The notes under the pieces were generated by a model. It searched no databases. It was not told the origin of the DNA and worked only from the letters and a program-made list of their open reading frames with translations. From the NCBI RefSeq assembly GCF_002020135.1, contig NZ_MPZS01000002.1, forward strand, positions 496,001-560,000: a stretch of DNA of 64,000 bases, given 5' to 3'. Every line of letters begins with the position of its first letter. Positions within the stretch are counted from its first letter, which is position 1. A program made the position numbers and the translations under genes. This DNA is from Thioclava marina. Its GTDB lineage: Bacteria; Pseudomonadota; Alphaproteobacteria; Rhodobacterales; Rhodobacteraceae. Below, in pieces: positions 30,445-46,600 of the stretch.

Positions 30445-30774
30445 TCAAGCGCTCAAATCCACTTCCACGTCGAGGAAGGGTGCGTATTGTTGCGCGCCGA
30501 AAATATCGCCATCCCCTGCGCTGCCCGACGGGCGTTCGCGCAAGATAGTGAACTTGATCGCATATGCCGGATCATATTCGACAAAATCCGTCAGACGCGC
30601 CGCGTCGACGCCTAGCACCGCGCAGACGCTCTCCGGCGTCAGCGCCTTCGACCGCTTGACCATCTCGTAGGTATCTTTCTCTCGAAAGATGATGTCGAAG
30701 GTGATCTTGTCCGTGCCTGCATTCTTGGAGCGGATCGTCTTGGCCAGATCAGCGAGTTTCTTACGGGTATTCAT
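30445..30774 (-). CDS. DUF4387 family protein
   Basis: A 109-aa small protein matching the DUF4387 type by its opening KLADLAKTIRSKNAGTDKITFDIIF and the following VLGVDAARLTDFVEYDPAYAIKFTILR. The function is unknown. The gene normally follows a DUF1446 (AtuA-like) gene, and some published split forms of AtuA-like enzymes place this small unit as a partner. Here it is 10 bases after such a gene. ATG 30774 is used; an upstream ATG falls inside the DUF1446 gene. Confidence 0.85.
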   Translation of the reverse strand: MNTRKKLADLAKTIRSKNAGTDKITFDIIFREKDTYEMVKRSKALTPESVCAVLGVDAARLTDFVEYDPAYAIKFTILRERPSGSAGDGDIFGAQQYAPFLDVEVDLSA

Positions 30775-30784
30775 GGGCCTCTCC

Positions 30785-32143
30785 TCAGCCGATCGTAGCA
30801 CTATGGGTCGGGAACAGTTCCAGCGGATCATCCACCGCCATCGTGTGGTTGAGCGTCCAGCGATAGGCCGGGCTTGCCTGCATCACCTCGTCGAGGACGA
30901 AGGACACACCGCCTGCGGTCCCCTTCACATCGGGCAACCGGGCGTAGAACAATTGCCGCGTGCCGGTCATGGCCACCTCTTCGGCCATTTCGCGCGTCGG
31001 GGCGACGCCCTGAACGACGACGCATAGCTCGTGGCCGGGCTGATCCCGGAGCGGCTCCATGTCACCCATCACGCCGTCGCGGCCAAAGACCGAATAGTGC
31101 AGCTCCCAGCCTTCGGGACCAAACCGGTCCACGGTCTGCTGGCGGGCCCATTCGATCACCTGATCGACATTGGCGATCGTGTAGGGGTCACGGATACCCG
31201 CCATGCCGACGAAGCGCTCGCCAACCTTGCCCGACCCTTCGAGCTTGACCCGGAATTCCTCGGCCGGATCAAAGGTCATGCCAGTGACACGGGTCGTCTT
31301 TTCCGCAGCCTGCTCGTAATGGCAGTTCGTCATGTCGAGCTTGCCGCCCGCCACGAATTCGTGAAACGGGTTCGAGCGCTCATACATGGCATGGCCCGCG
31401 ACCGACGCGATGGTGCAGCGCTGCTCGGGCGCCATGGCGGTGACCTCGACATGATCCGAGGTGATCTCGCCCATGACGGTCTCTTTCGCGCCGTAAGGCT
31501 CTGCGCAGAAGGACGCACATTCGAGGACCTTCCCGAGGTAGTAGCTTTGCGCCTCGGGGAAGCCGCGGTGCAAGGCCGCCGAAGCGAAGATCGCGCTGTC
31601 AGAGCAACGCCCGCCGATGATCACATCGCAGCCCTCGTCGAGCAGCTTCATGAACGGATGCACGCCGGCCATCGCGACGATGCGCTGCGTCGCGTCAAGC
31701 TCTTCCTCGCTCAGGTCGGGACGGGCGTCGAGCCCCTTGACCGCCGAGCCCGAACGGATCTTGGCGCGGACATATTCCCGGTCGACCTCGGAATAGAACC
31801 AGCCGAGCTTGAAGGGGGCGAGGTTGTGGCGCTTGGCGATGTCGCGGATGATCTCGACATACATATCGACATGGCTGTTGGTGCCGGTATCGCCGGCCGA
31901 GCCGATCATCATCGGCACGTCCAGTTTGCGTGCGGCGAGCAGCATCTCTTCGAGATCGTGCTCTTGCCAGGCGCGCGGGCTTGCGCAGCTGTCGTTGCCC
32001 AGCGGGACCGGGCCGATGTCATCGCTGCCCGAATCCGCCGCGATGAAGTCGGGCTTAGCGGCGACGCCAAGATGGAAGCTCCCTGTCTTGAGGGGGGCGA
32101 AGCCGAGATGCCCGTTCGGGCAGATGATCTTGAGCGATGCCAT
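30785..32143 (-). CDS. DUF1446 / acyclic terpene utilisation (AtuA-like) protein
   Basis: A 452-aa cytoplasmic protein of the DUF1446 family. Recognisable blocks are AADSGSDDIGPVPLG, MMIGSAGDTGTNSHVDMYVEIIRDIA, GCDVIIGGRCSDSAIFASAA and the C-terminal FVLDEVMQASPAYRWTLNHT. The best-known member, AtuA, belongs to citronellol/geraniol degradation, but other Atu genes are missing here, so that pathway is unlikely. A clear sigma-54 promoter (32180-32197) with an upstream palindrome drives it together with DUF4387, placing both in the regulon of the adjacent enhancer-binding protein. The role is probably a carbon-skeleton reaction on a product of the imported compound (inference). Confidence 0.85.
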   Translation of the reverse strand: MASLKIICPNGHLGFAPLKTGSFHLGVAAKPDFIAADSGSDDIGPVPLGNDSCASPRAWQEHDLEEMLLAARKLDVPMMIGSAGDTGTNSHVDMYVEIIRDIAKRHNLAPFKLGWFYSEVDREYVRAKIRSGSAVKGLDARPDLSEEELDATQRIVAMAGVHPFMKLLDEGCDVIIGGRCSDSAIFASAALHRGFPEAQSYYLGKVLECASFCAEPYGAKETVMGEITSDHVEVTAMAPEQRCTIASVAGHAMYERSNPFHEFVAGGKLDMTNCHYEQAAEKTTRVTGMTFDPAEEFRVKLEGSGKVGERFVGMAGIRDPYTIANVDQVIEWARQQTVDRFGPEGWELHYSVFGRDGVMGDMEPLRDQPGHELCVVVQGVAPTREMAEEVAMTGTRQLFYARLPDVKGTAGGVSFVLDEVMQASPAYRWTLNHTMAVDDPLELFPTHSATIG

Positions 32144-32179: not shown

Positions 32180-32197
32180 ATGCAGGTTTCGTGCCAA
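32180..32197 (-). promoter_or_regulatory. Sigma-54 promoter of the DUF1446-DUF4387 unit
   Basis: On the minus strand the -24 element TTGGCACG is followed by AAAC and the -12 element CTGCAT, giving GG-N10-GC spacing. The -24 part is a perfect match to consensus; the -12 part differs at one base. Transcription should start near 32170, leaving a leader of about 27 bases to ATG 32143. Confidence 0.85.
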
Positions 32198-32235
32198 CGG
32201 TTTTTACCCGAAATCTCGACATATTCGCGGAGTTG

Positions 32236-32272
32236 GCGTGCAAAATCGACGCGCCACGCGCAAATTGCACGC
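32236..32272 (-). promoter_or_regulatory. Palindromic upstream activator site, DUF1446 promoter
   Basis: GCGTGCAA (32236-32243) and TTGCACGC (32265-32272) are exact inverted repeats 21 bases apart. A further CACGCG half-site lies between them. They sit 40-80 bases upstream of the -24 element, the right place for an enhancer-binding protein. Confidence 0.65.
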
Positions 32273-32306
32273 AGCACGTCGTATCAGCGAAAAAATTCGG
32301 AAAAAC

Positions 32307-33305
32307 TCAGTCTTGCCGGAGACCGAGCTTGATCATCTGGTGGCGCAGCGCATGACGGCTTAGCTTGAGAGCTTCGGCTGCCGATTGGAGATTGCCGTTC
32401 GCGTCCGCAAGTGCCTGAGCGATGATCTGGCGCTGAAATTCCGCGGACAGTTCGTGAAACCCGCCCTTGGGGAGTGACTGCATCGGGGCTGCTTCTCCCG
32501 CGCTTTGGCGCAGGCTGCGTGGGATCCGTTCGGGAAGGTGGCTCGGCAGGATTTCATCCTCTTCCTCAAGAATGAAAATCCGCTCAAGCAGGTTCTCCAG
32601 CTCGCGCACATTGCCCGGCCAGCGATAGGCACGAAAAATCTCGGCCGTTTCGGGGTGCAGGCCGTGTATGTTGCGATTGTACTGGCGATTGTAACGAGCA
32701 ATGAAATGCGCCGCGAGGGTGATCACATCCTCACCGCGATCGCGCAGCGACGGAATATTCAGCGCCACGACCTGCAAGCGGTAATAGAGGTCCTCTCGGA
32801 ATTTGCCCGAATTCACTTCGGACAGAAGGACCTTGTTCGTCGCGGCGATGAAGCGGACATCGACCGAGGTGGATTTCACCGCGCCGACCCGGCGGAACTG
32901 CTGCGTGTCCAGAAGGCTGAGTAACTTGGCCTGAAGCGTCAGGTCCATCTCGCGAATTTCATCAAGGAAAATAGAGCCTTGATTGGCCGCCTCGACGAGG
33001 CCGACTTTGCGTTCAATAGCTCCGGTAAACGCGCCGCGTTCGTGACCGAACAGCTCGGATTCCATCAGACTTGCGGGGATTGCGGCGCAGTTCAGGTCGA
33101 TGAACTCCTTGGAGGCACGGCTGGAGGCGCGATGGATCATGCGTGCGACCAGCCCCTTGCCGGTGCCGGTCTCGCCATAGATCAAGACCGTGCGCACGGG
33201 ACTTTTCGCCACGCGCGCGACCAGTTTTCGCAAGGCGAGAATGCCGGGATGCGACCCGATCAGTTCGTTCTCGTATTCGGCCATTCCCTGCGCTGTCCCC
33301 GCCAC
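32307..33305 (-). CDS. Sigma-54-dependent enhancer-binding protein without sensory domain
   Basis: A 332-aa regulator that begins almost directly with the AAA+ domain. Walker A is GETGTGK (residues 44-50), the sigma-54 contact loop GAFTGA is at 91-96, Walker B is SIFLDEI (111-117), and a Fis-type helix-turn-helix (LQSAAEALKLSRHALRHQMIKLGL) ends the protein. There is no receiver, GAF or PAS domain, so activity is probably set by expression or by a partner (as with PspF). The GTG start at 33305 has GGAG upstream; ATG 33284 is the alternative. It is the last gene of the peptide-importer operon and lies next to the DUF1446 promoter. Confidence 0.92.
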   Translation of the reverse strand: MAGTAQGMAEYENELIGSHPGILALRKLVARVAKSPVRTVLIYGETGTGKGLVARMIHRASSRASKEFIDLNCAAIPASLMESELFGHERGAFTGAIERKVGLVEAANQGSIFLDEIREMDLTLQAKLLSLLDTQQFRRVGAVKSTSVDVRFIAATNKVLLSEVNSGKFREDLYYRLQVVALNIPSLRDRGEDVITLAAHFIARYNRQYNRNIHGLHPETAEIFRAYRWPGNVRELENLLERIFILEEEDEILPSHLPERIPRSLRQSAGEAAPMQSLPKGGFHELSAEFQRQIIAQALADANGNLQSAAEALKLSRHALRHQMIKLGLRQD

Positions 33306-33317
33306 TGATCCGCGCTC

Positions 33318-34385
33318 CTATCCGGCCAGGGGATGATGGGCATACCACGCATCGCGACAGGGGGAGCCCGCACAGAGTAGCAGCCCGGGTGCAGCGCAGG
33401 AATAGACAGCCGACGCGATGGTCTTGGTGCCATCCTCCGCGCCGTGTTGGCAGACAGGGGCGCCCTGCTCGGGGTGGCTCGCCATCAAGACCCGTGCGCT
33501 CGCACGATCCCAGCTGCGCGTCGGCAAGGTCGATGCCAGATATTCGTAGCGGCGCACCGAATTGGAGGCGATGCAATCGCCCTCGGGCAGCAGCGTGTCC
33601 TTTGCCAGAGCATCCGAGATGTAATGGTTGGTGCGCAGCACCAGACTACCCTCGACAATCTGTGGGCCGCTGGCGCCAAGCTCGACCGCCGCGACGGCCC
33701 CTCTGGCGTCCGCCATCACCAGAGTACCGCCGCCGGCATGTGGCTGCGACCGGATGATGTCCAGCGCCTGAGCGACCGTGTCGCAGCGCGCCAGAAGCCG
33801 TGTCATCAGGAAATAGCGCAGCCATCCGACGCGATGGTGGCGCACCGCGACCTGGGTATCGGCCAGCGCGAAGCCGCGTGCATTCACGCCCGAAGAATAA
33901 GCGCCCGGACTGCCTATGGATCCAAGGCACAGCATCGCCCCGGTCGTCACATCCGGACCCGCATGGCGCGCCACGGACTGGATGCCCAGATGAGTGCCGG
34001 AGAAGTCACGGTTCTTGACGACGAGCGGCCCCTCGGGCCCGTCAGAGACCGCCCAGGCGGAACAGCCATCCTCGAGACGCGCGCCCCCCTTGAGGTCACG
34101 CAACGTGCCCAGATGCAGATGCGCGAACAATTCCGCGGGATCCAGCGCAAAGCCGACCGCGATGCCGTCGAGCTCGGCAAGCCCTTCGGGGTCGATCTGC
34201 TCATGGAGCGCACGTTGCGCCGAGAGGTAATCCTCGGCCGCAGCATCGATCAGCCCTTCCGAGCGCGCCTGAGCGACGCGCCCGATCGTGGCGGCGCGCA
34301 CCTGATCGGCGCGCCCGGCATGCGCTTGCCCGCGCCCACGCTCCTCGGCCGAGCCGCTGAGTTCGAGCGTGATCGCCGCGCTCAT
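33318..34385 (-). CDS. C45-family autoproteolytic acyltransferase/hydrolase
   Basis: A 355-aa N-terminal-nucleophile hydrolase of the isopenicillin-N acyltransferase class. Self-cleavage is expected before Cys108 in DGCSAW, which becomes the nucleophile, and the family motif KNRDF follows at 124-128. Members hydrolyse or transfer acyl groups on amides such as N-acyl amino acids, penicillins or linear peptides. It overlaps the importer ATPase by ATGA, so it very probably acts on the imported amide or acyl-peptide in the cytoplasm. The exact substrate is unknown. Confidence 0.85.
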   Translation of the reverse strand: MSAAITLELSGSAEERGRGQAHAGRADQVRAATIGRVAQARSEGLIDAAAEDYLSAQRALHEQIDPEGLAELDGIAVGFALDPAELFAHLHLGTLRDLKGGARLEDGCSAWAVSDGPEGPLVVKNRDFSGTHLGIQSVARHAGPDVTTGAMLCLGSIGSPGAYSSGVNARGFALADTQVAVRHHRVGWLRYFLMTRLLARCDTVAQALDIIRSQPHAGGGTLVMADARGAVAAVELGASGPQIVEGSLVLRTNHYISDALAKDTLLPEGDCIASNSVRRYEYLASTLPTRSWDRASARVLMASHPEQGAPVCQHGAEDGTKTIASAVYSCAAPGLLLCAGSPCRDAWYAHHPLAG

Positions 34386-35392
34386 GCTTGCGTCTCGTCG
34401 AGAAGGGAGAGGTTCTCGGCCAGTCGGTGGCAGGCCGCGGTGTGACCGGGGCCAACAGTCTCCGCTCCAGGCTGTTGACTGCGACAAGCATCGATCGCCA
34501 GCGGGCACCGGGTGTGGAACTTGCACCCTTTCGGCGGATTGAGCGGCGAAGGCAGATCGCCGGCCAACCTGATCCGCTTGTTCCGCCCGGCATGGTCAAC
34601 CTCGGGCACCGCCGACATCAGGCTTTGCGTATAGGGATGGCGCGGATTGGCGAGGATCTGCTCGACCGGCCCCATCTCGACGATCTCGCCCAGATACATG
34701 ACTGCGACCCGGTCGGCGAGGTAGCCGATCACCGAGATGTCGTGACTGATGAACAGATAGGTCAGCCCCATCTCGCGCTTCAGTTCCAGAAGCAGTGCAA
34801 TGATCTGCGCCTGGATCGATACGTCGAGAGCCGAGACCGGTTCGTCGCAGACGATGAATTCGGGATGCGAAATGAGGGCACGCGCGATACCGATCCGCTG
34901 ACGTTGCCCACCCGAGAACTGGTGCGGATATCGGTCGATCTGGCCGGGCTTCAAACCAACCTTCGCGCAGATCGCGGCGACCTTCTCACGCAGTTCAGCG
35001 TCGTTCGCGGCCAAGCCGTGAAGCTTCAGCGGCAACCCGACGATCTCGGCAACGGTGCGCCGAGGGTTGAGACAAGCATAGGGATCCTGAAAGATGATCT
35101 GCATCCGCCGCCGCATCGCCTTGAGTGCAGCGGCGTCCAGCGCGGTCACCTCGGTTCCGTCGAAGGTTACCTCGCCGCGGGTCGGTTCGTGCAGACGCAG
35201 GATCGCGCGGCCAAGCGTGGACTTTCCGCAGCCCGACTCCCCGATCAGACCGAGGATCTCGCCCTTCTCGACCGTGAGGTTGATCTCGTTGACCGCACGC
35301 ACCACCGTGTGCTTCGCGCCAGTCAGGCGATCGAAGATACCGCGCCTGCCCTCGTAGTGTTTCGACAGGCCTTCGACTTTGAGCAGGCTCAT
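34382..35392 (-). CDS. Oligopeptide-type ABC ATPase (OppF-like)
   Basis: A 336-aa ATPase: Walker A GESGCGKS (residues 51-58), FQDPYACLNPRRTV, signature FSGGQRQR, Walker B FIVCDEPVSALD, and a C-terminal Cys-containing oligopeptide/dipeptide extension (GCKFHTRCPLAIDAC) characteristic of OppF/DppF, which may hold an iron-sulphur cluster. It pairs with the OppD-like ATPase. Confidence 0.93.
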   Translation of the reverse strand: MSLLKVEGLSKHYEGRRGIFDRLTGAKHTVVRAVNEINLTVEKGEILGLIGESGCGKSTLGRAILRLHEPTRGEVTFDGTEVTALDAAALKAMRRRMQIIFQDPYACLNPRRTVAEIVGLPLKLHGLAANDAELREKVAAICAKVGLKPGQIDRYPHQFSGGQRQRIGIARALISHPEFIVCDEPVSALDVSIQAQIIALLLELKREMGLTYLFISHDISVIGYLADRVAVMYLGEIVEMGPVEQILANPRHPYTQSLMSAVPEVDHAGRNKRIRLAGDLPSPLNPPKGCKFHTRCPLAIDACRSQQPGAETVGPGHTAACHRLAENLSLLDETQA

Positions 35393-36384
35393 TCTTCATC
35401 CCCTCCGATCAGGATGCAGCGCGCATTGTGCGCGGGGCCGGCAGCCCGCATTTCCACGGGCGCAAGGCAGGCTTCGCGCCGCTGCGTGCACCGCGAGTAG
35501 AAGCGGCATTGCGGCGCGAGCCCGATGAGGTCCGGCACCTGACCCTCGATAGGGTGGATCGGCTGGCCGCGCAGAGCAGGCCGCGGGATCGACGCCAGAA
35601 GCCCCTGCGTATAGGGATGTTTCGGCGCGCCGATCACCTCTGTGGTCGGGCCTTCCTCGACGACCTGTCCGGCATACATTACCATTACACGGTCGCAATG
35701 CTCGGCCACCACGCCAAGATCATGCGTGATCAGCGCCACGCTCATTCCGAGCTTCGCGCGAATGTCCGAGATCAGTTCGAGTACCTGCGCCTGGATCGTC
35801 ACATCGAGCGCAGTGGTGGGTTCGTCGGCGATCAGCAGCTTGGGTCGGCAGGCCAGCGCAATCGCAATCATGATCCGCTGCCGCATCCCGCCCGAAAACT
35901 CGTGCGGATATTGCCGGAGCCGGGTCTCGGCCGACGGAATGCCGACAAGCCCGAGCATCTCGATCGAGGCCTTGCGGATCGCCTTGCGCCGCGCAGCTCC
36001 GCGTGCGGGCAGAGTCTCATCATGGGCCTCCAGCACTTCGGCGATCTGCTCGCCCACGCTCAGCGCAGGATTGAGCGCTGTCAGCGCGTCCTGCATCGTC
36101 ATGGCGATGTCGCGTCCGCGGACCGCACGCATTTGACGGGGGCTGAGACCGCGCAGGTCGCGGCCGTCGAACACGATTGTCCCGCTCTCGATCCGGCCCG
36201 GCGCTTTCACCAGCCCCATGACCGAGGCGAAGGTCACGCTTTTGCCCGAGCCACTCTCGCCCACGATGCCGAGACATTCGCCCCGTCGCACCGCCACGCT
36301 GACACCGTCCACCGCACAGATCCGCCCGGCCCGCGTCTCGAATACCGTGCGCAGGTCGCGCACTTCCAGCAAAGCGTCTTTCAT
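35389..36384 (-). CDS. Oligopeptide-type ABC ATPase (OppD-like)
   Basis: A 331-aa ATPase with Walker A GESGSGKS (42-49), MQDALTALNPALSVGEQ, signature FSGGMRQR, Walker [13 protein letters not shown] and a C-terminal Cys-rich segment (PQCRFYSRCTQRREAC). ATG 36384 is used; the frame stays open upstream but antisense to nothing and within the OppC-like gene. ATGA overlaps on both sides. Confidence 0.93.
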   Translation of the reverse strand: MKDALLEVRDLRTVFETRAGRICAVDGVSVAVRRGECLGIVGESGSGKSVTFASVMGLVKAPGRIESGTIVFDGRDLRGLSPRQMRAVRGRDIAMTMQDALTALNPALSVGEQIAEVLEAHDETLPARGAARRKAIRKASIEMLGLVGIPSAETRLRQYPHEFSGGMRQRIMIAIALACRPKLLIADEPTTALDVTIQAQVLELISDIRAKLGMSVALITHDLGVVAEHCDRVMVMYAGQVVEEGPTTEVIGAPKHPYTQGLLASIPRPALRGQPIHPIEGQVPDLIGLAPQCRFYSRCTQRREACLAPVEMRAAGPAHNARCILIGGDEE

Positions 36385-37271
36385 TCGGAAAACCTCGGAT
36401 CGAAAGCGTCGCGAAGACCCTGGCTCGCGACATTGATCGCCAGCACCAGAAACAGGATCGCAAGGCCGGGGAAGGTCGAAACCCACCAGGCTTCGAGCAT
36501 GAAGGCGCGCCCGTCGGCCACCATAGAGCCCCAGGATGCGGTAGGCGGCTGGACCCCGAGGCCCAGGAAGGAGAGCGAGGCTTCGAGAATGATCACATGC
36601 GCCATCCGGATCGTGGCCACCACGATCACCGGAGAGAGCACGTTGGGAAGGATCTCGCGCAGCATGATATGACCGCGCGAGGCGCCCAATGCGCGCGCCG
36701 CTTCGACATATTCCAGCTCTCGCGTCACCAGGGTTTCGCCCCGCACGACACGTGCCGGGATCACCCATTCCTTGTAGGCGAGCGCAAAGATGATGTTCCA
36801 AAGCCCTGGCCCCATCATCGCCATCAGGCCGATCGCGAAGATCAGATAGGGGAAGCCGAGAAGGATATCGACGATCCGGGAGATCAACATATCCACCCAG
36901 CCCCGCAGATAGCCCGCAGCCAGACCGGCGAGAATGCCGATCGTGGTCGCGACCAGGATCACCACGATCCCGATGAAGATCGAGATCCGCGCCCCATAGA
37001 CGATGCGCGAGAGGATATCGCGCCCCAGCGCGTCGCAGCCCAGAACATAGGACCACTCCCCCCCGGCCATCCAGCCCGGCGGCTGCAGGCGGCGGAACAG
37101 GTCGGTCTCGTTCGGGTCATGCGGAGCGATCCAGGGCGCAAAGACCGCCATCACCACGAACAACACGACGATCAGCGCACAGAGCATCGCCAGCCGGTTG
37201 CCAGTAAAAGTCGCGAGATTGCGGCGCAGGATGGTTTCCGACGCGGCGGGGGTTTCGGCTGCAAGGCTCAC
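36381..37271 (-). CDS. Oligopeptide-type ABC permease (OppC-like)
   Basis: A 296-aa inner-membrane permease with HDPNETDLFRRLQPPGW and VLGCDALGRDILSR in the first periplasmic loop, the coupling loop EAARALGASRGHIMLREILPN and the end segment LSFLGLGVQPPTASWGSM. It overlaps both neighbours by ATGA. Confidence 0.93.
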   Translation of the reverse strand: MSLAAETPAASETILRRNLATFTGNRLAMLCALIVVLFVVMAVFAPWIAPHDPNETDLFRRLQPPGWMAGGEWSYVLGCDALGRDILSRIVYGARISIFIGIVVILVATTIGILAGLAAGYLRGWVDMLISRIVDILLGFPYLIFAIGLMAMMGPGLWNIIFALAYKEWVIPARVVRGETLVTRELEYVEAARALGASRGHIMLREILPNVLSPVIVVATIRMAHVIILEASLSFLGLGVQPPTASWGSMVADGRAFMLEAWWVSTFPGLAILFLVLAINVASQGLRDAFDPRFSE

Positions 37272-38275
37272 AGTTTCACCCTCGGATTCAGAACGGTGTA
37301 AAGCAGGTCGGCGACGAAGTTCAAAAGCACGTAGGTCACGGCGTAGAACAGCACGGCCGCCTGAACGAGTGGGTAGTTGCGCAAGAAGATGCTCTCGACA
37401 ACGAGGCGGCCCAGGCCCGGCCAGCCATAGACAGTCTCGACGATCATGTTGCCACCTAGCAGGCTGCCGGTCTCGATCGCGGCCACCGAGACGGTCGGGA
37501 TCAGGGCATTCTTGAGCGCATGGCGAAACAGCACGCGACGACGCGACAGCCCCTTGGCATCGGCAAAGGTCACATAATCCTGTCGCAACACTTCCAGCAT
37601 CGAGGTGCGCGTGACCCGCATCAGGATTGCGGTCATCGGCAAGCCAAGCGTAATCGCAGGCAAGATGAGATGGGCGACAGCGTCCCCGAACGCCTTCATG
37701 TTCCCCGCGACCAGGGTGTCGATCAGAAGAAAGCCGGTGACGCTGGGCACTTCGGAATCGAAGCCGATCCGACCCGACACCGGGAGGAGATGCAAATGCA
37801 CCGCAAAAAGCATCAGCAACAGAATTCCGAACCAGAACCCCGGTAAAGATACTCCCAGCAAAGACCCCACCGTGGCGATCCGATCGAAGATCGAGTTCTT
37901 TTTGATCGCGGCCAGAACGCCCAGGGGGATTGCGGTCGCAAGCGCGACGACCAAGGCCACGAGGCTGAGTTCGATCGTGGCGGGCAGCCGCTCGGCGATC
38001 ACATCGGCAACCGGACGCTTGTGATAGAAGCTTTCGCCAAAATCGAAATGCGTGGTATTTCCGAGGAAGATGAAGAAGCGTTCAACCATCGGCCGGTCGA
38101 GACCCATGTCGTGACGCAGTTGCGCCTCTTGTTCTGCGGTAATGGCCTGATCACCGATCATGATCTGCACCGGATCGCCCGGTGTCAGTGCCATCATCGT
38201 AAAGGCGATGACGCTGACACCCAGCAGAACGGGCACAAGTTGTGCGATACGCTCCAGGAGCTTGCTGAGGCTCAT
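37268..38275 (-). CDS. Oligopeptide-type ABC permease (OppB-like)
   Basis: A 335-aa inner-membrane permease. It carries the N-terminal LLERIAQLVPVLLGVSVIAF helix, LRHDMGLDRPMVERFF, and the coupling loop ADAKGLSRRRVLFRHALKNALIP followed by GGNMIVETVYGWPGLGRL. It is the second gene of the operon, 21 bases after the binding-protein gene. Confidence 0.93.
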   Translation of the reverse strand: MSLSKLLERIAQLVPVLLGVSVIAFTMMALTPGDPVQIMIGDQAITAEQEAQLRHDMGLDRPMVERFFIFLGNTTHFDFGESFYHKRPVADVIAERLPATIELSLVALVVALATAIPLGVLAAIKKNSIFDRIATVGSLLGVSLPGFWFGILLLMLFAVHLHLLPVSGRIGFDSEVPSVTGFLLIDTLVAGNMKAFGDAVAHLILPAITLGLPMTAILMRVTRTSMLEVLRQDYVTFADAKGLSRRRVLFRHALKNALIPTVSVAAIETGSLLGGNMIVETVYGWPGLGRLVVESIFLRNYPLVQAAVLFYAVTYVLLNFVADLLYTVLNPRVKL

Positions 38276-38296
38276 GCCCGTTCTCCCTCTCTGATC

Positions 38297-39835
38297 TTAT
38301 TCGATGCAGGCGTCGTGCAGGTTGATGCGGCTGTCGGCACTGGGCTTCCATCCCTTCAAGCGCTTCGACACACCGTAGAGGTCCGCCGGCACCCAGAGGT
38401 AGATGTAGGGCAGGTCCTTGTTCACGATGACCTCGGCCTGATGATACATCCCGGCGCGCTTCACAGTGTCGACTTCGACAGCAGCCTCATCGAGCAGCTT
38501 GTCGACCTCGGGATTGGAATAGCCCGCCGAGTTGCCGCGATCGTTCGTCTTGTGGGTCGGCGTGAAGATGTCGAAGGGGTCGAGCGAGCCATTCCCCCAG
38601 CTGGTGAAATACATGTCACCAGTCTTTTCGCCGCCCTTGGTGCGCCACTTTTCCGAAAGCTGCGCGCCTTCGCCGACGACAACCTTGGTGTGGAAGCCAG
38701 CCTTGCTCAGCAACGAAGCCGTGGCCTCCGCGGTGTCCTTGAACGCACCTTCCACATCCATCGTGATGTCGATACCGTCCGGGTAACCAGCCTCGGCCAG
38801 AAGCTTCTTCGACAATTCCGGATCGTAGCTGTACTTGTGCAAGTCGGTCGAGGCCGCGAAGGCGTCAGGCGAAAGGATGCCCTCGATCGGCGCCGCGTTT
38901 CCGCCCAGGATTTTGTCGATGATCAGCTGCTTGTCGATCGCATGCGCCGCTGCTTCGCGCACACGGTGATCCGCGAAATACTTGCCTTGCATGTTCATCG
39001 CGATGAAGAAGCTGCGCGTGCCATTCACCTTCATCACGACGGTGTCGGGGTTGTTCTCGACCTGCTTCACCGAGAAGGGAGGCAATTCGTTGATGATATC
39101 GACATCGCCCGCCAGCAGCGCGGCGACGCGCGAAGCGCTCTCGGGGATAATCTTGAAGATCACGCGATCGACACAGGCCTTGCCGACCGGCGGGATCTCG
39201 GTCGAGCCACCATAGTATTCGTCGAAACGATCCATGATGATCGCGTCGCCTTTGCGCCATTCGGCCAGCTTGAAGGGACCGGTGCCGTTTTCCGAGGTCG
39301 CCGCGCCCTCATTGCCGACCTTCTCGATCCAGGCCTTGGAAACCACCTCTTCGAAAGGCAGCATCGCGGGCAGGATCGGCCAGGGCTCCTTGAGGGTGAT
39401 CCGCACGGTGTCGCCATCAATGACCTCAGTGCCGGCGACCGGGCCCATCAGGCTTTGTCGCGGGCTGGTCTGTCCGTTGCCCATGCCGCCATCCTCGGTG
39501 ATGCGATCGATCGTGAACTTCACATCGTCCGCAGTCAGATCGCTGCCATCGTGGAACTTGATGCCTTTGCGGATCTTGAAATCGTAGACGGTCGGCGAAA
39601 CCTGAACCATCGACTCCGCAATCTGCGGAACGACCTTCATGTTCGCATCGCGCGTCAGAATGCCGTCATACATGTTGCGAATGATGGTTTCAGTTTCGCG
39701 CTTGCGGTGGTTCGCCGGGTCCAGCGTGTTCGCGTCGAGGGTAAATCCAACCGTAAGGTCAGTCGCCCACGCGGCAGGTGTCCCGAAACAAGCGGCCACC
39801 GCCGCCGCAGTTAGCATCTTATGCAGTGTCTTCAT
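38297..39835 (-). CDS. Family 5 ABC substrate-binding protein of the sigma-54 module
   Basis: A 512-aa periplasmic protein. The signal peptide (MKTLHKMLTAAAVAACFG) ends near AWA. The mature N-terminus DLTVGFTLDANTLDPANHRKRETE, the FKIRKGIKFHDGSDLTADDVKFTIDR block and VREAAAHAIDKQLIIDKIL are classical for SBP family 5. It is the first gene of the importer operon and follows a sigma-54 promoter at 39899-39916. Confidence 0.93.
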   Translation of the reverse strand: MKTLHKMLTAAAVAACFGTPAAWATDLTVGFTLDANTLDPANHRKRETETIIRNMYDGILTRDANMKVVPQIAESMVQVSPTVYDFKIRKGIKFHDGSDLTADDVKFTIDRITEDGGMGNGQTSPRQSLMGPVAGTEVIDGDTVRITLKEPWPILPAMLPFEEVVSKAWIEKVGNEGAATSENGTGPFKLAEWRKGDAIIMDRFDEYYGGSTEIPPVGKACVDRVIFKIIPESASRVAALLAGDVDIINELPPFSVKQVENNPDTVVMKVNGTRSFFIAMNMQGKYFADHRVREAAAHAIDKQLIIDKILGGNAAPIEGILSPDAFAASTDLHKYSYDPELSKKLLAEAGYPDGIDITMDVEGAFKDTAEATASLLSKAGFHTKVVVGEGAQLSEKWRTKGGEKTGDMYFTSWGNGSLDPFDIFTPTHKTNDRGNSAGYSNPEVDKLLDEAAVEVDTVKRAGMYHQAEVIVNKDLPYIYLWVPADLYGVSKRLKGWKPSADSRINLHDACIE

Positions 39836-39898
39836 TCCTTATCTCCCTGTTTCGTCGCGTTGCTACGTGACGTATTTTTTTGGTGGACATAACATCTG

Positions 39899-39916
39899 AT
39901 GCAGGAACTGTTCCAC
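39899..39916 (-). promoter_or_regulatory. Sigma-54 promoter of the peptide-importer operon
   Basis: On the minus strand TGGAAC-N5-CTGCA has exact GG-N10-GC spacing (GG at 39913-39914, GC at 39901-39902) with one mismatch in each element. The start would be near 39889, about 54 bases before ATG 39835. Confidence 0.7.
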
Positions 39917-39983
39917 GAAATCCAAGACGAGAAAAAAGAGAAAAGGCACCAAAAATCAAAGATATAAAGAAAATTCACGAGAT

Positions 39984-40006
39984 GCCCGCGAAAGCTCGGC
40001 GCGGGC
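39984..40006 (-). terminator. Terminator-like hairpin after rpoN
   Basis: GCCCGCG (39984-39990) and CGCGGGC (40000-40006) form a perfect 7-bp stem with a 9-base loop about 32 bases after the rpoN stop. A T-rich stretch follows on the minus strand, but not at once. Confidence 0.5.
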
Positions 40007-40008
40007 TC

Positions 40009-40046
40009 GCGCGCATTTCACACGCATCGCGTGCGGATTACGCGCG
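40009..40046 (-). promoter_or_regulatory. Palindromic upstream site of the importer promoter
   Basis: CACGC-ATC-GCGTG (40021-40033) is a perfect core palindrome inside a wider repeat with GCGCGC at the left edge and CGCGCG at the right. It shares the GCGTGC half-site with the site at 32236-32272 and lies about 95-145 bases upstream of the promoter, partly inside the rpoN end. It is a candidate enhancer site. Confidence 0.45.
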
Positions 40047-41351
40047 AGCGGATTGGGCTCTTTCGCTGCGGATCGACGCGTTCGGAATTCCCAGCTGCCC
40101 CCGGTATTTCGCGACCGTACGGCGCGCCAGAGCAATGCCTACATCCGCGAGTTCCTGAACGATCTGCGCGTCGTTCAGCGGGGCATCCCCCTCCCGCTCT
40201 ATCATCGCCGCGATGCGATGGCGCAGCGCCACCGCCGAGATCTGCCCCCCATCTTGCGTTGTGATCGACGCGCTGCACAGGGCACGCAATGTCACCGTTC
40301 CGCGCGGCGTGGCCATCATCCGTCCGGCGGCCAGACGGCCCACCGTCGTCTCATGCAGCCCGAGCGCCGCCGCCAGACTGGCGAAGCTCATCGGCGCAAG
40401 GCGTGCAGGTCCTTCTTCAAGCCATCCAGTCTGGCGCTGAACGATCTCGCTTGCCAGGTGTAGCAGCGTTTCGTTGCGTCGAACCACCGCGCGTCGCAGA
40501 AGCTCTGCCTCACGACGCTCCTTGCTTCCCTGACTTGCGTCGTCATTGATCTCAACCTCAGGAAGCGTCGAGCGATTGAGCGAGACGCGCCAGGCCCCTG
40601 CCTCGCGGCGCACGATGATATCGGGTTCGCTGGGCGGTGGAGGAGCTGGATCGAAACACAGGCCCGGCTTGGGATCGAAGCTGCGGATCAGCGCCAGTTG
40701 CACGCCGATTTCCCCTTCGGTTGTGCCGCCCAACCGCGCAAGATCGCTCAGGCGCCCCTCGGCTAGCAGAGGTAGGTTGTTCAGCACGCTGGCCATTACC
40801 GGCGTCAACAAGCCACAGTCCTTCGCCTGCAACCACAGGCATTCCCGCAAGTCGCGCGCCAACAGGCCCGCAGGTTCGATTTGCTGCGCCCGTTTCAGCA
40901 CCGCTTCTACCTGCGGCACAGGGACCCTAATTTCTTCAGCGATTTCATCGATGGGACGATCTAACCACCCCCAAGGAGAGACAGCCTGCGCCAGAGCCTC
41001 TCCGATCGCGAGATCGAGCGGCTCGCGCAGCAAGAGACGCAGCTCGGACAGGATATGTTCCTGCAATCCCGGACTGCCTGCGACCCCCAGCGCCTCCGCC
41101 AAACCGCCACCGATACCAAGCTGCAAACGAGGCGGTCGGGCATTCGCGCCCGAAGTTGGCTTCCACAGGTGCAATATCGTATCCTGCGCAGGTAGCCTCA
41201 CTGCTAGCGCCGGGTTCGAGGCAGCCTCGCGTGTCAGTTCCTGGGCCAGTTCCGAATTGGAAAGTTTCAACAAACCGATCGCGCGTCGCAGCTCTGGCGT
41301 CATGGCAAGAGCTGACGCCTGTCGCGCGACGATCTGGGGGCCTGTAAGCAT
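40038..41351 (-). CDS. rpoN: RNA polymerase sigma-54 factor (RpoN paralogue)
   Basis: A 437-aa sigma-54 factor. Region I is visible as ARQASALAMTPELRRAIGLLKLSNSELAQEL, which contacts enhancer-binding proteins. The core-binding domain follows, with DIIVRREAGAWRVSLNRSTLPEV. The RpoN box ARRTVAKYR is at residues 409-417 near the end. The full set of functional regions makes it likely active. No ptsN, hpf, lptB or other genes normally beside the housekeeping rpoN are present, so this looks like a second, dedicated copy. The neighbours are two sigma-54 promoters and one enhancer-binding protein. Confidence 0.93.
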   Translation of the reverse strand: MLTGPQIVARQASALAMTPELRRAIGLLKLSNSELAQELTREAASNPALAVRLPAQDTILHLWKPTSGANARPPRLQLGIGGGLAEALGVAGSPGLQEHILSELRLLLREPLDLAIGEALAQAVSPWGWLDRPIDEIAEEIRVPVPQVEAVLKRAQQIEPAGLLARDLRECLWLQAKDCGLLTPVMASVLNNLPLLAEGRLSDLARLGGTTEGEIGVQLALIRSFDPKPGLCFDPAPPPPSEPDIIVRREAGAWRVSLNRSTLPEVEINDDASQGSKERREAELLRRAVVRRNETLLHLASEIVQRQTGWLEEGPARLAPMSFASLAAALGLHETTVGRLAAGRMMATPRGTVTLRALCSASITTQDGGQISAVALRHRIAAMIEREGDAPLNDAQIVQELADVGIALARRTVAKYRGQLGIPNASIRSERAQSARA

Positions 41352-41876: not shown

Positions 41877-43277
41877 ATGTCGACTAGAGTTTCATTGACC
41901 GATCTGTTTATCCGCAAACTGAAGCCGCAGGGCATTCGCACCTCCTATTCGGACGCTCAGCAAATCGGGTTGCGCCTGCGTGTCGGCGCAAACGGGCATC
42001 TGACCTTCGCCTATCACGGACGGGCGCTCAACGGCACGAAGAAGACCGTCACGATCGGAGACTACCCGACCTGGAGTCTGAAGGCCGCTCGCGAAGAAGC
42101 TGAGCGGATCCGTCGAGAGCTGAAGGAAGGCAAGGATCCAAATGAAGAGAAGCGTCGCCTGCGCGAAGAAGCAGCTTCCGAGAAGGTCACGCTTCGCGAT
42201 GTGCTCGACGATTACGAGGCGAAGATGGCCGGACAGCAGAGGATCTGGACGCGATCGCCGAAAGGACGATGTGAAGCCCGTCTGCGGATCGACGCGGTGT
42301 TCGACAAGCTGCTCGACCGCCCGGTGTCAGACATCACCGTGGATGACTTTGCGAAAGGAATGAGAACCTACGAGCCGCGTCAGAACCGCGGCAAAGCCAC
42401 CGCGCATGGTCAGACTTCGCGCGCACGGAGCTACCTCATCAAACCTCTGGACTGGGCTGCGAGGCGTAACAAGTTCAGAAAGGCTGGGGCGGGGCGTGAG
42501 CCGAAGGTGAACACGCCTGATATCCGCGACACCCACGATTTCGCCGAGGATGATCCGACGATCACGGGGAAGCGCACCCGCGTCCTTTCGGGGGCCGAAC
42601 TCGCGAAGGTGCTTCCCTATTTGAGATATCCCGCACCGAAAGAGCTGAAACTGGTCGATGTCACGACGCAGGACCTTCGCCCTGTCGCGATGCGCTTCAT
42701 CTTGCTAACCGCCGCGCGCCGACAGGAGGTGATCGACATGCGCTGGTGCGACGTGGATTTCGAGGCGGGTAAATGGTTCAAACCAAAAGTGAAATCGAAG
42801 GGGCAGGAGCGGAGCCAGGTTTTGCCGCTTTCGGATGAAGCTCTGCGGATCTTGACTTGCCTGCCCGGATATCAAGACAGGCATTCGAATGCCTATGTCT
42901 TTGCCAATGAGGCCGGCGGACCGGCGGGGAACTTTCAGCGTGCAAACGACGCGATCAAGCGGGAGAGCGGCACCAGCGACTGGCATCGTCACGACCTGCG
43001 CCGCACGGCCAGCCAGATCATGCTCGAACTCAACACTCCGCCGATGATCGTCGACACGATTCTCGCCCACACGAACGCACTCACGAAGACGGGCGCGTCG
43101 AATTCGATTGATCACTACGCCGAGGTCACGCGGAAGATCATGCTGCATGTCGAAGATCCGCAAAAGATTGCGCTGGACCGGCTTGCAGCCGCGCTCGATG
43201 CCTTCGAGCGGATGAGCGAGGAGGAAATCAAGGAGCTCGAGCGGCGCGAAGAGATCGAGCTGCGGCGGAAAAGATAA
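41877..43277 (+). CDS. P4-type tyrosine integrase
   Basis: A 466-aa site-specific recombinase. An N-terminal DUF4102 arm-binding domain (residues about 5-95, ending in ELKEGKDPNEEKRR) is followed by a core-binding domain and the catalytic domain. Catalytic residues are readable as Arg281 (AARRQE), His372 and Arg375 (HDLR), His398 (LAHTN) and Tyr414 (IDHYAE), so the enzyme looks active. ATG 41877 follows an AAGGAGG site. It is the only recombination gene in the window and faces the giant helicase gene, which suggests both belong to one integrative element. Confidence 0.93.
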   Translation: MSTRVSLTDLFIRKLKPQGIRTSYSDAQQIGLRLRVGANGHLTFAYHGRALNGTKKTVTIGDYPTWSLKAAREEAERIRRELKEGKDPNEEKRRLREEAASEKVTLRDVLDDYEAKMAGQQRIWTRSPKGRCEARLRIDAVFDKLLDRPVSDITVDDFAKGMRTYEPRQNRGKATAHGQTSRARSYLIKPLDWAARRNKFRKAGAGREPKVNTPDIRDTHDFAEDDPTITGKRTRVLSGAELAKVLPYLRYPAPKELKLVDVTTQDLRPVAMRFILLTAARRQEVIDMRWCDVDFEAGKWFKPKVKSKGQERSQVLPLSDEALRILTCLPGYQDRHSNAYVFANEAGGPAGNFQRANDAIKRESGTSDWHRHDLRRTASQIMLELNTPPMIVDTILAHTNALTKTGASNSIDHYAEVTRKIMLHVEDPQKIALDRLAAALDAFERMSEEEIKELERREEIELRRKR

Positions 43278-43658
43278 CCGCGACCATGTCGTCTGCGGGT
43301 CGGACTTCTCAGGTTTCCGAGCGCAACGGCCCCACGTGCTGTTCTTAAGTTTCGCTTTGCAGCCCCTCAGACGAATTTGCTGCAGAAGCCATAATTGAGT
43401 CACCGAACGCCTGCCGCCGTTCCTCCTAGGTGTTCATGGCGATAGGGCTAGGCCAGGCGTCGGGCTCTTAGGTCAGAATGTCCGCGCCTTTCGATGGCGA
43501 GACGGTTGTCATGACCGATCATGCGCCGCACTCGGCCGCATAATGGCTGCTTTCGCAATCCGCTCCAGACAAGATGAGAGTGCCGAAATTCTTTTCTTTC
43601 CATCTGGAAAGGATAAGGTCATCAAAGATTTGTGTAGAGAACGGACACCACTTCACGC
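43278..43658. other. Region between the integrase and the giant helicase gene
   Basis: 381 bases without a credible gene. A short palindrome CTTTCC-ATCT-GGAAAG (43596-43611) lies 48 bases before the helicase start and may be an operator or a leader hairpin. The ribosome site of the helicase is weak. Confidence 0.4.
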
Positions 43659-46600
43659 ATGCAAGGGAGCGCCAACAAGACGGGATCAGATCTTCTGGCG
43701 CGATGTGTGGCCATTGATTTGGAGGTCGACCCTTCGACTGCTCGCATATTCTCTTTCGCGGCGGCAAAATCTGCCTTCGAAAGCGAGGCTCTCGTGGTTC
43801 GAGCCGCGGTCGAAGCTGGATTGCAGAGCCTCGATGCTTTCTGCGACGGCTTCAATCATGTGATTGGGCATAATATCCTGCGGCACGATCTGCCTCATCT
43901 CATGGCAGCCTCGATGCGTTTCGCTCGTCTCGCCGAGTCCCCGATCGACACACTCTGGCTCAATCCGCTCGCCTTCCCGCGCAACCCTTATCACCACCTG
44001 GTCAAACACTATCAGGATGGGCGCTTGCAAAGCGGACATGTTAATGATCCCGAGTTCGACGCCAGACTCGTCTTCGAAGTCCTGAACAATCAGATCGAAG
44101 CCTTCGCCGAAATCGGGAAAAGGTCGCCTGACGCACTGACCGCTTATCATTACCTGTGCAGCCGACCGCCGCGCAGCGAGGGGTTCGAAAAACTCTTCGA
44201 TACGATCCGACAGACGAAAAGGCCCGACAAGCAGGAGGCGCATGCCGCGATCCGGCGCCTGCTTGAGACAGCGTGCTGTTCGACCAATCTGGAGCGAACC
44301 CTCGAAAACCTCGATGACATCTCCCTAAGTTGGCCGATGGCCTATGCGCTCTCCTGGATCTCAGTTGCGGGTGGTGACTCGGTCATGCCCCCCTGGGTGC
44401 GCGCTCAGTTCCGCGATGCGGCCCGGATCGTTCGCGACTTGCGCGACACTAAGTGCGGCGATGCCGCATGCGCCTATTGTCGGGCTCACAACGATCCCAG
44501 ACGCGCCTTACATCGCTGGTTTGGCTTCGAGAGTTTCCGCCCTGAACCCGTCGACGAATTTGGACGCCCGCTGCAGGAGCGCATCGTCGAAACAGCAATG
44601 CACGGAGAGAGCCTTCTCGGGATCCTGCCGACCGGCACGGGGAAATCCATCTGTTATCAGATCCCCGCCCTGTCGCGTTTCGACAAGACCGGTGCGTTGA
44701 CAGTGGTCATCTCGCCCCTTGTGGCTCTGATGGCCGATCAGGTGCAGGGACTTGCAAGAGCGGGGATCGCATCGGCAGTCACGGTGAACGGTCTTTTGTC
44801 GCTTCCCGAACGGCAGGATGCGCTGGACAGGGTTCGTCTTGGCGACGCAGCGATCCTTCTGATCTCCCCCGAGCAATTGCGCAGCACATCGGTCCGCTCC
44901 GTCCTCGCCCAGCGCGAAGTCGGGCTCTGGGTTCTCGACGAGGCGCATTGCGTGTCGAAATGGGGCCACGACTTCAGGCCGGATTACCGCTATATCAGCC
45001 GCTTCATCAAAGAAAGTTCGGGCGAGGACGTCGCCCCCGTTCTCTGCCTCACCGCCACTGCAAAACCCGATGTCGTCAGGGATATTCGCGAGCATTTCAG
45101 CGAGCGTCTCGGCTGTGAACTCACCTTGCTTGATGGCGGCGCATCCCGCACGAATTTGAGTTTCAGCGTCCTTCCGACCCAGCGACAGACAAAACTGGCC
45201 GATATTCTCGATGCGCTCGAGTCCGATTTGCCAGCCACCGGGGCATCCGGCGCGGTTGTCTATTGCGCGACCCGGAATACCACGGAACGGGTGGCAGAGT
45301 TTCTTAAGCAGCAAGGGCTTGCTGCCGAACGCTATCATGCCGGCCTGAGCCCCGACGAAAAGCGCGACATCCAAGAGGCTTTTCGCGTTGGCGAGTTGCG
45401 GGTGATAGCTGCGACCAACGCCTTTGGCATGGGCATCGACAAACCCGATATTCGCCTCGTCGTGCATGGCGATGTTCCGGGTTCGTTGGAGAATTACTTA
45501 CAGGAAGCAGGTCGAGCGGGGCGCGATCGTGATCCTGCAAAATGCGTTCTCTTGTTCAACTCTGACGACGTGGATCGACAGTTCAGTCTGAGTGCTCGCT
45601 CTCGCCTCGCACGCCATGAAATCGGCGCCATCTTGAAAGCTGTGCGCAGGCTCGACGTCAGATCTGGCAAGAAGGGCGAGGTGATCGCCACACCCGGCGA
45701 AATCATTCATGAAGAAAAAGACCGGGAATTTCTACGCGACAACGCAACGGAAGACACTCGCGTCAAGACTGCGGTCGCCTGGCTTGAAGAAGCAGCTCTT
45801 CTAAGGCGCGAGGAAAACCGTGTGCAGGTCTTTCCTGCATCGCTTCTCGTGCGAAGCCTCGAACAGGTGCGAAAAATTCTCGATCAGGCGGAGATTACCG
45901 GGACGCGCAGGCAGCAGCTGCTTGGAATCGTTCAGCACATCATCAATGCGCCTGCCGATGAGGGGATCTCGACTGATGACTTAAGCGGCGCGAGCGGATT
46001 GACGGGTCCGGCATTACGAAAGGCAATGACGGACCTCGAGGCTCTCGGGATCGCCAACAACGACACTAACATCACGATTCACGTGCATGTGGCGGTCGAG
46101 AACGCCTCGCGTGCGAGGTTCGAAGCCGCAGCGCGGCTGGAGCGTGATCTGATCGCACAGATGCGCGAGGATGCGCCCGATGCCGATAATGGCGAAGCAT
46201 CAGCTTTCAATTTGGCGGCGACCAGCCAAGCGCTTCGTGAAAAAGGTCATGGCACGGTTCGTCCCGATGTCATCGAAGGGCTTCTTCGCGGCATGGCACA
46301 TGACGGGCGCGATATGGAGGGCGGGCGCGGCAATCTGCATCTGCGCAAAGCCTCACGCACAAGCCTTTTCGTGCGCCTGCAACGCTCATGGTCCGTCATC
46401 GAGAAGACTGCGGAACTGCGCAGGCTGGGCGCAGAGCGCCTGCTGGAGCATCTTGTCGGAAGGGTTCAGAAAGGCCTGCGCGGCAAAGACATCCCTGTCG
46501 AAACAACCCTTGGCGCACTGCTCGGCGCTATCAATGGCGATGCAATGCTGCGTGGGGCGGTCAACGATCCGAACAAATTGATGGACCGGGCACTACTCTG

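Follow-up and report, generated by a model that had tools for sequence, protein, structure and literature searches.

A ten-gene cluster of Thioclava marina with a probably dedicated RpoN, a sensor-less activator and two sigma-54 promoters

The stretch of DNA analysed here, called the window, comprises 64,000 nucleotides of Thioclava marina (NCBI RefSeq assembly GCF_002020135.1, contig NZ_MPZS01000002.1, positions 496,001 to 560,000 of the forward strand). Ten minus-strand genes, running from position 41351 down to 30445, encode, in this order, the sigma factor RpoN, a solute-binding protein (SBP) of the SBP_bac_5 family, the products of dppB, dppC, dppD and dppF, a C45 hydrolase, an enhancer-binding protein (EBP), an AtuA/DUF1446 protein and a DUF4387 protein. 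Judged from sequence, they probably (at a rough probability of 0.75) form a self-contained, sigma-54-driven catabolic cluster with a dedicated RpoN. This reading is carried by the gene content, the domains of the products, a gene order conserved in relatives, conserved promoters, matched numbers of rpoN and EBP genes, and the co-variation of RpoN with the EBP.

A private sigma-54 circuit had been proposed for positions 32180-41351 in an original prediction, made from the bare sequence. All the genes listed there, i.e. those for RpoN, an EBP with the GAFTGA loop, an oligopeptide-type importer, a C45 protein and DUF1446/DUF4387, were found on the minus strand; the block is real, but it had been drawn too short, as the cluster runs on to the DUF4387 gene at 30445. 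The circuit itself is supported by the finding of a second rpoN in the genome, by the kept gene order and by the matched numbers of rpoN and EBP genes, and is corrected in four respects: the other rpoN is not a housekeeping copy, the DUF1446/DUF4387 pair resembles the two subunits of a solved lyase, the linked rpoN is an added part of the cluster, and feedback through the EBP, which fits the layout, does not extend to rpoN as far as its upstream DNA shows.

Gene content and conservation

The rpoN gene (40038..41351; minus strand, like all features of the cluster given below) encodes 437 amino acids from an ATG at 41351. The product scores over the cut-offs of PF00309, PF04963, PF04552 and TIGR02395, the AID, core-binding and DNA-binding domains all being recognised above Pfam cut-offs, and contains the RpoN box ARRTVAKYR, as expected of the full-length RpoN that had been claimed. 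After a gap of about 200 bp follow the SBP gene (38297..39835, assigned by Pfam; closest solved chains 5u4o, 1uqw (YliB) and 6hlx (AgaA)), the permease genes of dppB type (37268..38275) and dppC type (36381..37271), the ATPase genes of dppD type (35389..36384) and dppF type (34382..35392), these four assigned by family models, the gene of a C45 autoproteolytic amidase/acyltransferase (33318..34385; NF040521, 138 bits against a cut-off of 85) and the EBP gene (32307..33305, with an alternative start at 33284). Since the genes from SBP to EBP are separated by 21 bp at most, or overlap, they are taken as a single unit; the EBP gene, its last member, lies within one of the target operons, as had been predicted. 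A second gap, of about 160 bp, precedes the genes for AtuA (30785..32143; PF07287) and DUF4387 (30445..30774; PF14330). One -24/-12 element is found in each of the two gaps.

The EBP combines a sigma-54 interaction domain, the loop GAFTGA and a C-terminal helix-turn-helix of Fis type. Only 36 (from ATG 33284) or 43 (from GTG 33305) residues precede Walker A, and the N-terminal sensory domain, usual though not obligatory in such activators, is absent. Most EBPs of the relatives are built likewise, with a start codon 34-46 residues before Walker A. The domains, loop and short N-terminus are those of the sensor-less activator that had been described.

Conservation was evaluated in 198 genomes of the family (G labels), 390 genomes of the order and 84,980 species genomes, some of them metagenome-assembled genomes (MAGs); genes in relatives were called by a home-made caller, replaced by a simpler one for five loci. 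Ten of the 198 family genomes contain relatives of the C45 protein at E values of 1e-20 or below. All ten genes, headed by rpoN, stand in the same order in the window and in five further genera (G114, G012, G074, G152 and G168), while in G129 the module is split over two contigs (L018 and L088). Module genes are present in altered order, without linkage to rpoN, in G183 and G040, and neither rpoN nor EBP is found at the locus in G014. The genes lying upstream of rpoN have no family in common in this sample. At the level of the order, 11 of 390 genomes pass a threshold of 1e-60; among the genomes listed from the genus of the window, one further genome matches in part and at least two do not match at all, so that the cluster is regarded as accessory.

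An AtuA alignment, run against the 84,980 species genomes, identified 154 relatives, the best 80 of which constitute the named loci. Four of these (L219, L240, L260 and L263) are contigs of G114, G012, G152 and G168, respectively, and the two sets therefore overlap by four. A same-strand rpoN lies in the cluster in 27 of the 80 named loci: the gene order is that of the window in 26, and rearranged in the remaining one. The records of 25 of the 27 carry the label Rhodobacteraceae or Rhodobacterales, or the name of a genus assigned to them; the exceptions are Aquamicrobium defluvii, where the order begins AtuA-DUF4387-rpoN-SBP, and a Hoeflea MAG, possibly misbinned. The locus of Salipiger thiooxidans is cut (L221), and an rpoN is found next to an SBP gene on another of its contigs. 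Rhizobiales, Burkholderiales and others carry the module, or the EBP with AtuA-DUF4387, without an in-line rpoN; an opposite-strand rpoN lies nearby in L258 and L288, and groups among canonical RpoNs. Because the catabolic genes and the EBP also occur without a linked rpoN, the latter is regarded as an added part. The conservation in relatives on which the original prediction depended is thus observed, the order being kept across genera. Among plasmid records, 32 contain an AtuA relative, only five of them at 60% identity or more.

Promoters and activator sites

The two promoters had been proposed on the basis of the bare pattern GG-N10-GC. This is common in shuffled DNA, being present in 247 and 225 of 500 shuffles of the two window regions, and is therefore weak evidence alone; a loose -24/-12 scan of the whole window also produced no excess (64 matches versus 67.8 in shuffles). 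The promoters of unit 1, TGGAACAGTTCCTGCAT (39899..39915), and of unit 2, TGGCACGAAACCTGCAT (32180..32196), lie in a context of TGGCAC/TTGC type, and are conserved across relatives as part of an extended motif. The pattern GG[AC]A[CT]N6TGCAT, written after viewing the same regions, is found in 14 out of 14 regions upstream of SBP and AtuA in seven rpoN-linked modules, against a shuffle mean of 0.018 regions.

The 80 named loci were searched by a generic sigma-54 consensus, with the threshold and the distance window fixed after a first look; between 0.3 and 1.6% of shuffles pass it, according to the class of locus. A promoter at 40-100 bp from AtuA was found in 26 of 27 rpoN-linked loci, in all 17 loci that have a GAFTGA EBP and demonstrably no linked rpoN, and in 24 of 26 that lack an SBP or are truncated by the end of a contig; none was found in the three loci with a degenerate EBP loop (L273, L275 and L294), and one in the six without an EBP in the available DNA (a seventh was too short). 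The corresponding counts before SBP are 26/27 for linked, 17/17 for unlinked and 2/4 for cut loci, 0/2 with a degenerate loop and 0/1 without an EBP. In these counts, for which ten EBP loops missed by the loop pattern were read separately, the sigma-54 promoter and the GAFTGA-type activator loop go together. In G040, which has a canonical rpoN and a GAFTGA EBP, AtuA is preceded by TTGGCACGGAAATTGCT and by a perfect palindromic site; in G014, where rpoN and EBP are missing from the locus, no such promoter was found before AtuA. A Haematobacter locus (L235, 9866-11670) contains AtuA-DUF4387 with a perfect promoter match and no EBP in the available DNA, the only rpoN match of that genome being canonical.

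The degenerate loops read GSFAGA in Oceaniglobus (L273, a contig of G183) and Boseongicola (L294), and GTISSA in the MAG NORP78 (L275). The idea that the loop decays only after the loss of rpoN fits the first two, whose genomes show no RpoN match, and fails in NORP78, which has a canonical rpoN. G183 retains a repeat resembling the EBP site, which suggests that this EBP now acts in a different way. The NtrC of Rhodobacter lacks GAFTGA and works with sigma-70; a similar arrangement would explain the persistence of the three degenerate-loop EBPs without sigma-54.

The palindromic DNA, also reported upstream of the promoters, was evaluated in two ways. A consensus-free test for upstream palindromes was not significant (83, versus a shuffle mean of 80.5 and a maximum of 87), whereas querying with a single site, taken from a genome that was not in the set, gave summed matches of 181, against a shuffle maximum of 149. 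With this query, the putative EBP site before AtuA, TGCGTGCAATTTGCGCG (32257..32273), is equalled by 4 of 500 shuffles. The putative site before SBP, CGTGTGAAATGCGCGCG (40008..40024; centre about 101 bp before the GG), has 12 matches out of 17 to the held-out site and is equalled by 29 of 500 shuffles, being weak on its own. The evidence for a terminator-like hairpin at 39974..39992, after rpoN and before the SBP promoter, is weak as well, since the region has 11 such sites versus 8.1 expected. Upstream of rpoN no -24/-12 motif was found in any of the seven rpoN-linked modules examined, and the gene therefore probably has an ordinary promoter of its own.

RpoN copies and their partners

In agreement with what had been supposed, the rpoN of the module is not the only one in the genome of the window (G000). 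Its two rpoN genes are each clustered with the gene of a GAFTGA activator, and a housekeeping copy is not among them. EBPs were counted as PF00158 hits over about 84 bits, weaker hits having been read only in part, and the DNA pattern used covers exact GAFTGA only. By this count GAFTGA is present only in the two EBPs of the rpoN clusters, the other PF00158 proteins of the genome having GAFPGA or no loop. The module's rpoN is the sole rpoN in six related module genomes (G114, G012, G129, G152, G168 and G074), so that the private circuit may be their entire sigma-54 system; the first five have a single GAFTGA/GSFTGA EBP, which also is the module's. The numbers of rpoN genes and of GAFTGA/GSFTGA EBPs are equal in six of the seven rpoN-module genomes.

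These numbers also bear on the possibility that this RpoN is a general sigma-54 factor, lying by accident beside one of many targets. It is the sole PF04552 match in 13 of the 27 linked named genomes, where any other sigma-54 gene would depend on it; a second GAFTGA/GSFTGA EBP exists in G074, and further matches to the promoter pattern are found in each genome. The last point loses force from the search for TGGMAYN6TGCAT in ten whole genomes: matches exceed the reversed control in all ten, including the rpoN-less G183 (6 versus 1) and G014 (11 versus 3), and the pattern, which has 9 occurrences in G000, two of which belong to the module, therefore says nothing about regulon size. A general role is also opposed by the five genomes in which the only GAFTGA/GSFTGA EBP is the module's, by the ten-gene order, kept while the genes upstream of rpoN share no family, and by the co-variation of RpoN with the EBP, and is considered quite improbable.

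This co-variation was measured among the 27 linked modules, where RpoN diverges most among eight proteins, at a mean distance of 0.56. Its distances follow those of the EBP best (Mantel r 0.845, the top of seven genes tested; none of 1000 permutations as high), with r values of 0.794 for C45 and 0.605 for SBP; part of the correlation between RpoN and EBP comes from shared ancestry alone.

RpoN lineages were compared by using 67 proteins with their neighbourhoods, reduced to 65 in the tree by dropping two fragments. Neighbourhood types were established by a Pfam scan of one or two loci per type, the remaining labels being assigned by clustering; they include lpt-linked canonical (24 proteins), flagellar, nif, selD-linked, diiron monooxygenase and aldehyde-dehydrogenase types, the present module and four others. 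The labels require 8 changes on the tree, where the minimum is 7 and shuffled labels require 37.6, so RpoN copies largely track their neighbourhoods. In this comparison the seven RpoNs of the module lie on one side of a branch (support 70/93), apart from the nif, flagellar, selD- and monooxygenase-linked groups. A single clade of module RpoNs is neither shown nor excluded, as two changes are needed when 23 RpoNs of named loci are added, for a total of 30.

The remaining alternative is that the EBP drives the cluster with any RpoN, the linked rpoN being a spare, left after the loss of the housekeeping gene. Exactly one rpoN match, of at least 202 bits, is found in each of the 11 genomes examined out of the 17 unlinked ones with a GAFTGA EBP, and their promoters are kept; in 136 of the 198 family genomes no RpoN exceeds the cut-off, and two of the three degenerate-loop modules lie in genomes without an RpoN match. 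All this speaks for a spare copy. However, a canonical rpoN exists in addition to the linked one in Frigidibacter, an Actibacterium, a Paracoccaceae MAG, Aquamicrobium and a Hoeflea MAG, so that linkage is not confined to genomes that have lost the housekeeping gene. These five come from the 14 linked genomes other than the 13 mentioned above, in which seven second copies were typed: five canonical (lpt-rpoN-hpf-ptsN), one selD-linked and one of the aldehyde-dehydrogenase-module type. Of the culturable relatives in the named set, Gemmobacter aestuarii shows two rpoN matches and Maritimibacter fusiformis a single one. Moreover, the -12 element reads GCAT in 24 of 26 SBP and 25 of 26 AtuA promoters of linked modules, versus 1 of 17 and 10 of 17 in unlinked ones; the lineages compared are not independent, and the shift fits the co-evolution of a private sigma factor with its promoters. 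The spare copy is thus a possible, if doubtful, account. The rearranged module of Aquamicrobium defluvii (L251, 9929-18861) has a distant, long-branch RpoN and GCTT at both promoters, besides the canonical rpoN.

A number of observations weigh against a dedicated RpoN. The SBP promoter of the window is off the consensus (TGGAAC), and further occurrences of the extended promoter pattern turn up in all genomes searched, even in those lacking rpoN. Cross-talk is possible, since a canonical rpoN accompanies the linked one in at least 5 of the 27 genomes; G074 has one rpoN and two GAFTGA/GSFTGA EBPs, and NORP78 a canonical rpoN next to a degenerate EBP loop. Finally, in the enlarged tree the module RpoNs need two changes and lie on one branch side in 21% of bootstraps.

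The second rpoN of the window's genome (C1:1989361) closes another self-contained cluster (C1:1980000-1990000, L014; relatives in L108 and L315) encoding an EBP, an SBP_bac_8 protein, an ABC ATPase, two permeases, an aldehyde dehydrogenase and a class-I glutamine amidotransferase; no sigma-54 promoter over threshold was found for this type of module in L299 and L315. A recurrent RpoN lineage of 11 loci (L077, L080, L082, L085, L086, L090, L092, L093, L095, L098 and L100) has, among its clustered neighbours, a fused oxidoreductase-AIRS (SelD-like) protein in 10, a rhodanese-type protein in 9 and hydantoinase A in 8, with Pfam assignments made on L082. In L102, L106, L109 and L113 an RpoN copy adjoins a diiron monooxygenase-type cluster (Phenol_Hydrox and chaperonin, by Pfam on L102), recalling methane monooxygenase clusters. 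In the window, positions 41877-48773, divergent beside rpoN, encode a tyrosine integrase with an Arm-DNA-binding domain and a 1704-aa protein with DEAD/DEAH and UvrD-like helicase parts, a possible mobile element, with no tRNA within the window; they are followed by the gene of a MauG-type di-haem cytochrome c peroxidase (49035-50174).

Predicted chemistry, related systems and significance

AtuA matches chain A (9erq_A, 247 bits) and DUF4387 matches chain B (9erq_B, 85 bits) of PDB entries 9erq/9evf, deposited as citramalate lyase CmlA/CmlB, so that the pair is assigned, by sequence, to two-subunit lyases of CmlAB type. The similarity to CmlA is moderate, and the lyase may therefore act on another acid, a further point to be set against the proposed pathway. 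In the C45 protein, which exceeds its family cut-off, G107-C108 and N253 are conserved (at least 97% of 63 aligned rows). The import system belongs to the Dpp/Opp type (SBP_bac_5, two permeases and two oligo_HPY ATPases), and no NCBIfam model at substrate level was over cut-off among the matches listed for it. In other genomes the lyase genes adjoin TctC (scanned in L297, clustered in others), DctM (scanned in L265), or an amidohydrolase and an FAD oxidase (L284), a variety that would be expected if different imported forms call for different hydrolase steps. Genes for an acyl-CoA dehydrogenase, a CoA-transferase and a RipC-like lyase, the last two below NCBIfam cut-offs, lie within 6 kb in Advenella (L270), and clustered relatives of the first and the third are found in Aquamicrobium (L251). 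From the lyase matches, the C45 motifs and the contexts of the lyase genes, import of an amide conjugate, amide hydrolysis and cleavage of a hydroxy acid are proposed. An ordinary di- or oligopeptide as the substrate, with AtuA/DUF4387 other than a C-C lyase, would suit the type of importer, and the enzyme roles given here are predictions; it agrees poorly with the finding that the two proteins match the two chains of a single solved lyase, with the dedicated C45 amidase and with the transporter genes of TctC or DctM type that adjoin the lyase genes at some other loci, and is held to be unlikely.

The cluster would operate as follows. RpoN, made from its own non-sigma-54 promoter, would load RNA polymerase at the two -24/-12 promoters, and the sensor-less EBP, bound some 70-120 bp upstream (in places to a pair of sites spaced by about 20 bp), would open both. 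Unit 1 (SBP-dppBCDF-C45-EBP) would supply importer, amidase and more EBP, a positive loop that fits the layout, and unit 2 (AtuA-DUF4387) the CmlAB-type C-C lyase. An amide- or peptide-like conjugate would be imported, its amide bond split by the C45 Ntn-hydrolase, and the freed citramalate-like hydroxy acid cleaved by the lyase, yielding an oxo acid plus a short carboxylate. The direction of this pathway, its substrate, the feedback and any exclusive pairing of RpoN, EBP and promoters are what we infer from the layout. Tentatively, the linked RpoN, both promoters (-12 GCAT) and the EBP may have shifted together into a fully orthogonal channel, such that no other RpoN or EBP drives the module.

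Dedicated RpoNs are an already known kind, of which the present cluster would be a further variant. In Methylosinus trichosporium, rpoN, mmoR and mmoG are reportedly tied to the soluble methane monooxygenase cluster, so that, as here, rpoN and an EBP are bound to one catabolic cluster; enzymes and lineage differ. CmlAB (PDB 9erq and 9evf) resembles the module in both lyase subunits; the module adds a Dpp importer, a C45 amidase and sigma-54 control, and its lyase activity is predicted. In Cereibacter (Rhodobacter) sphaeroides, which has RpoN1-RpoN4, NifA works with RpoN1, FleQ with RpoN2 and AprX with RpoN3 (PMC11999139, PMC12316311), and the specificity of RpoN1 and RpoN2 depends in part on how position -11 is recognised (PMC11999139). 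These specialised paralogues belong to the same bacterial order, each studied one being paired with one EBP, as is proposed for the module; they serve nif, flagellar and xrpA genes, whereas the module holds RpoN, EBP and catabolic targets in one cluster. The nifU2-rpoN superoperon of R. capsulatus (PMC6925177) likewise has rpoN placed inside the regulon that it serves, and expresses it from a weak constitutive promoter; it differs in serving nitrogen fixation with NifA, and in expressing rpoN also from a NifA-RpoN-activated promoter, of which the module shows no sign.

A DUF1446 gene of unknown function is placed beside methylaspartate ammonia-lyase in one paper (PMC4682846). The literature search returned no naming of DUF4387 and no pairing of 'citramalate lyase' with AtuA; no title since 2015 on citramalate lyase or DUF1446 names an AtuA/DUF4387 enzyme pair, and none among the matches listed names such a rpoN-SBP-dpp-C45-EBP-AtuA-DUF4387 module.

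If the proposed orthogonal channel exists, the supply of sigma factor would be the control point, since the EBP has no sensor, contrary to the usual activator-based control of sigma-54. Some genomes of the family have their sole RpoN inside one catabolic cluster which, on the reading preferred here, would possess its own sigma factor, activator and promoters. The cluster would thus offer a compact natural case for how sigma-54 paralogues gain specificity, and a candidate orthogonal expression system; it also provides a function-level lead for DUF1446/DUF4387 genes, as those of a predicted CmlAB-type lyase acting after an amidase.

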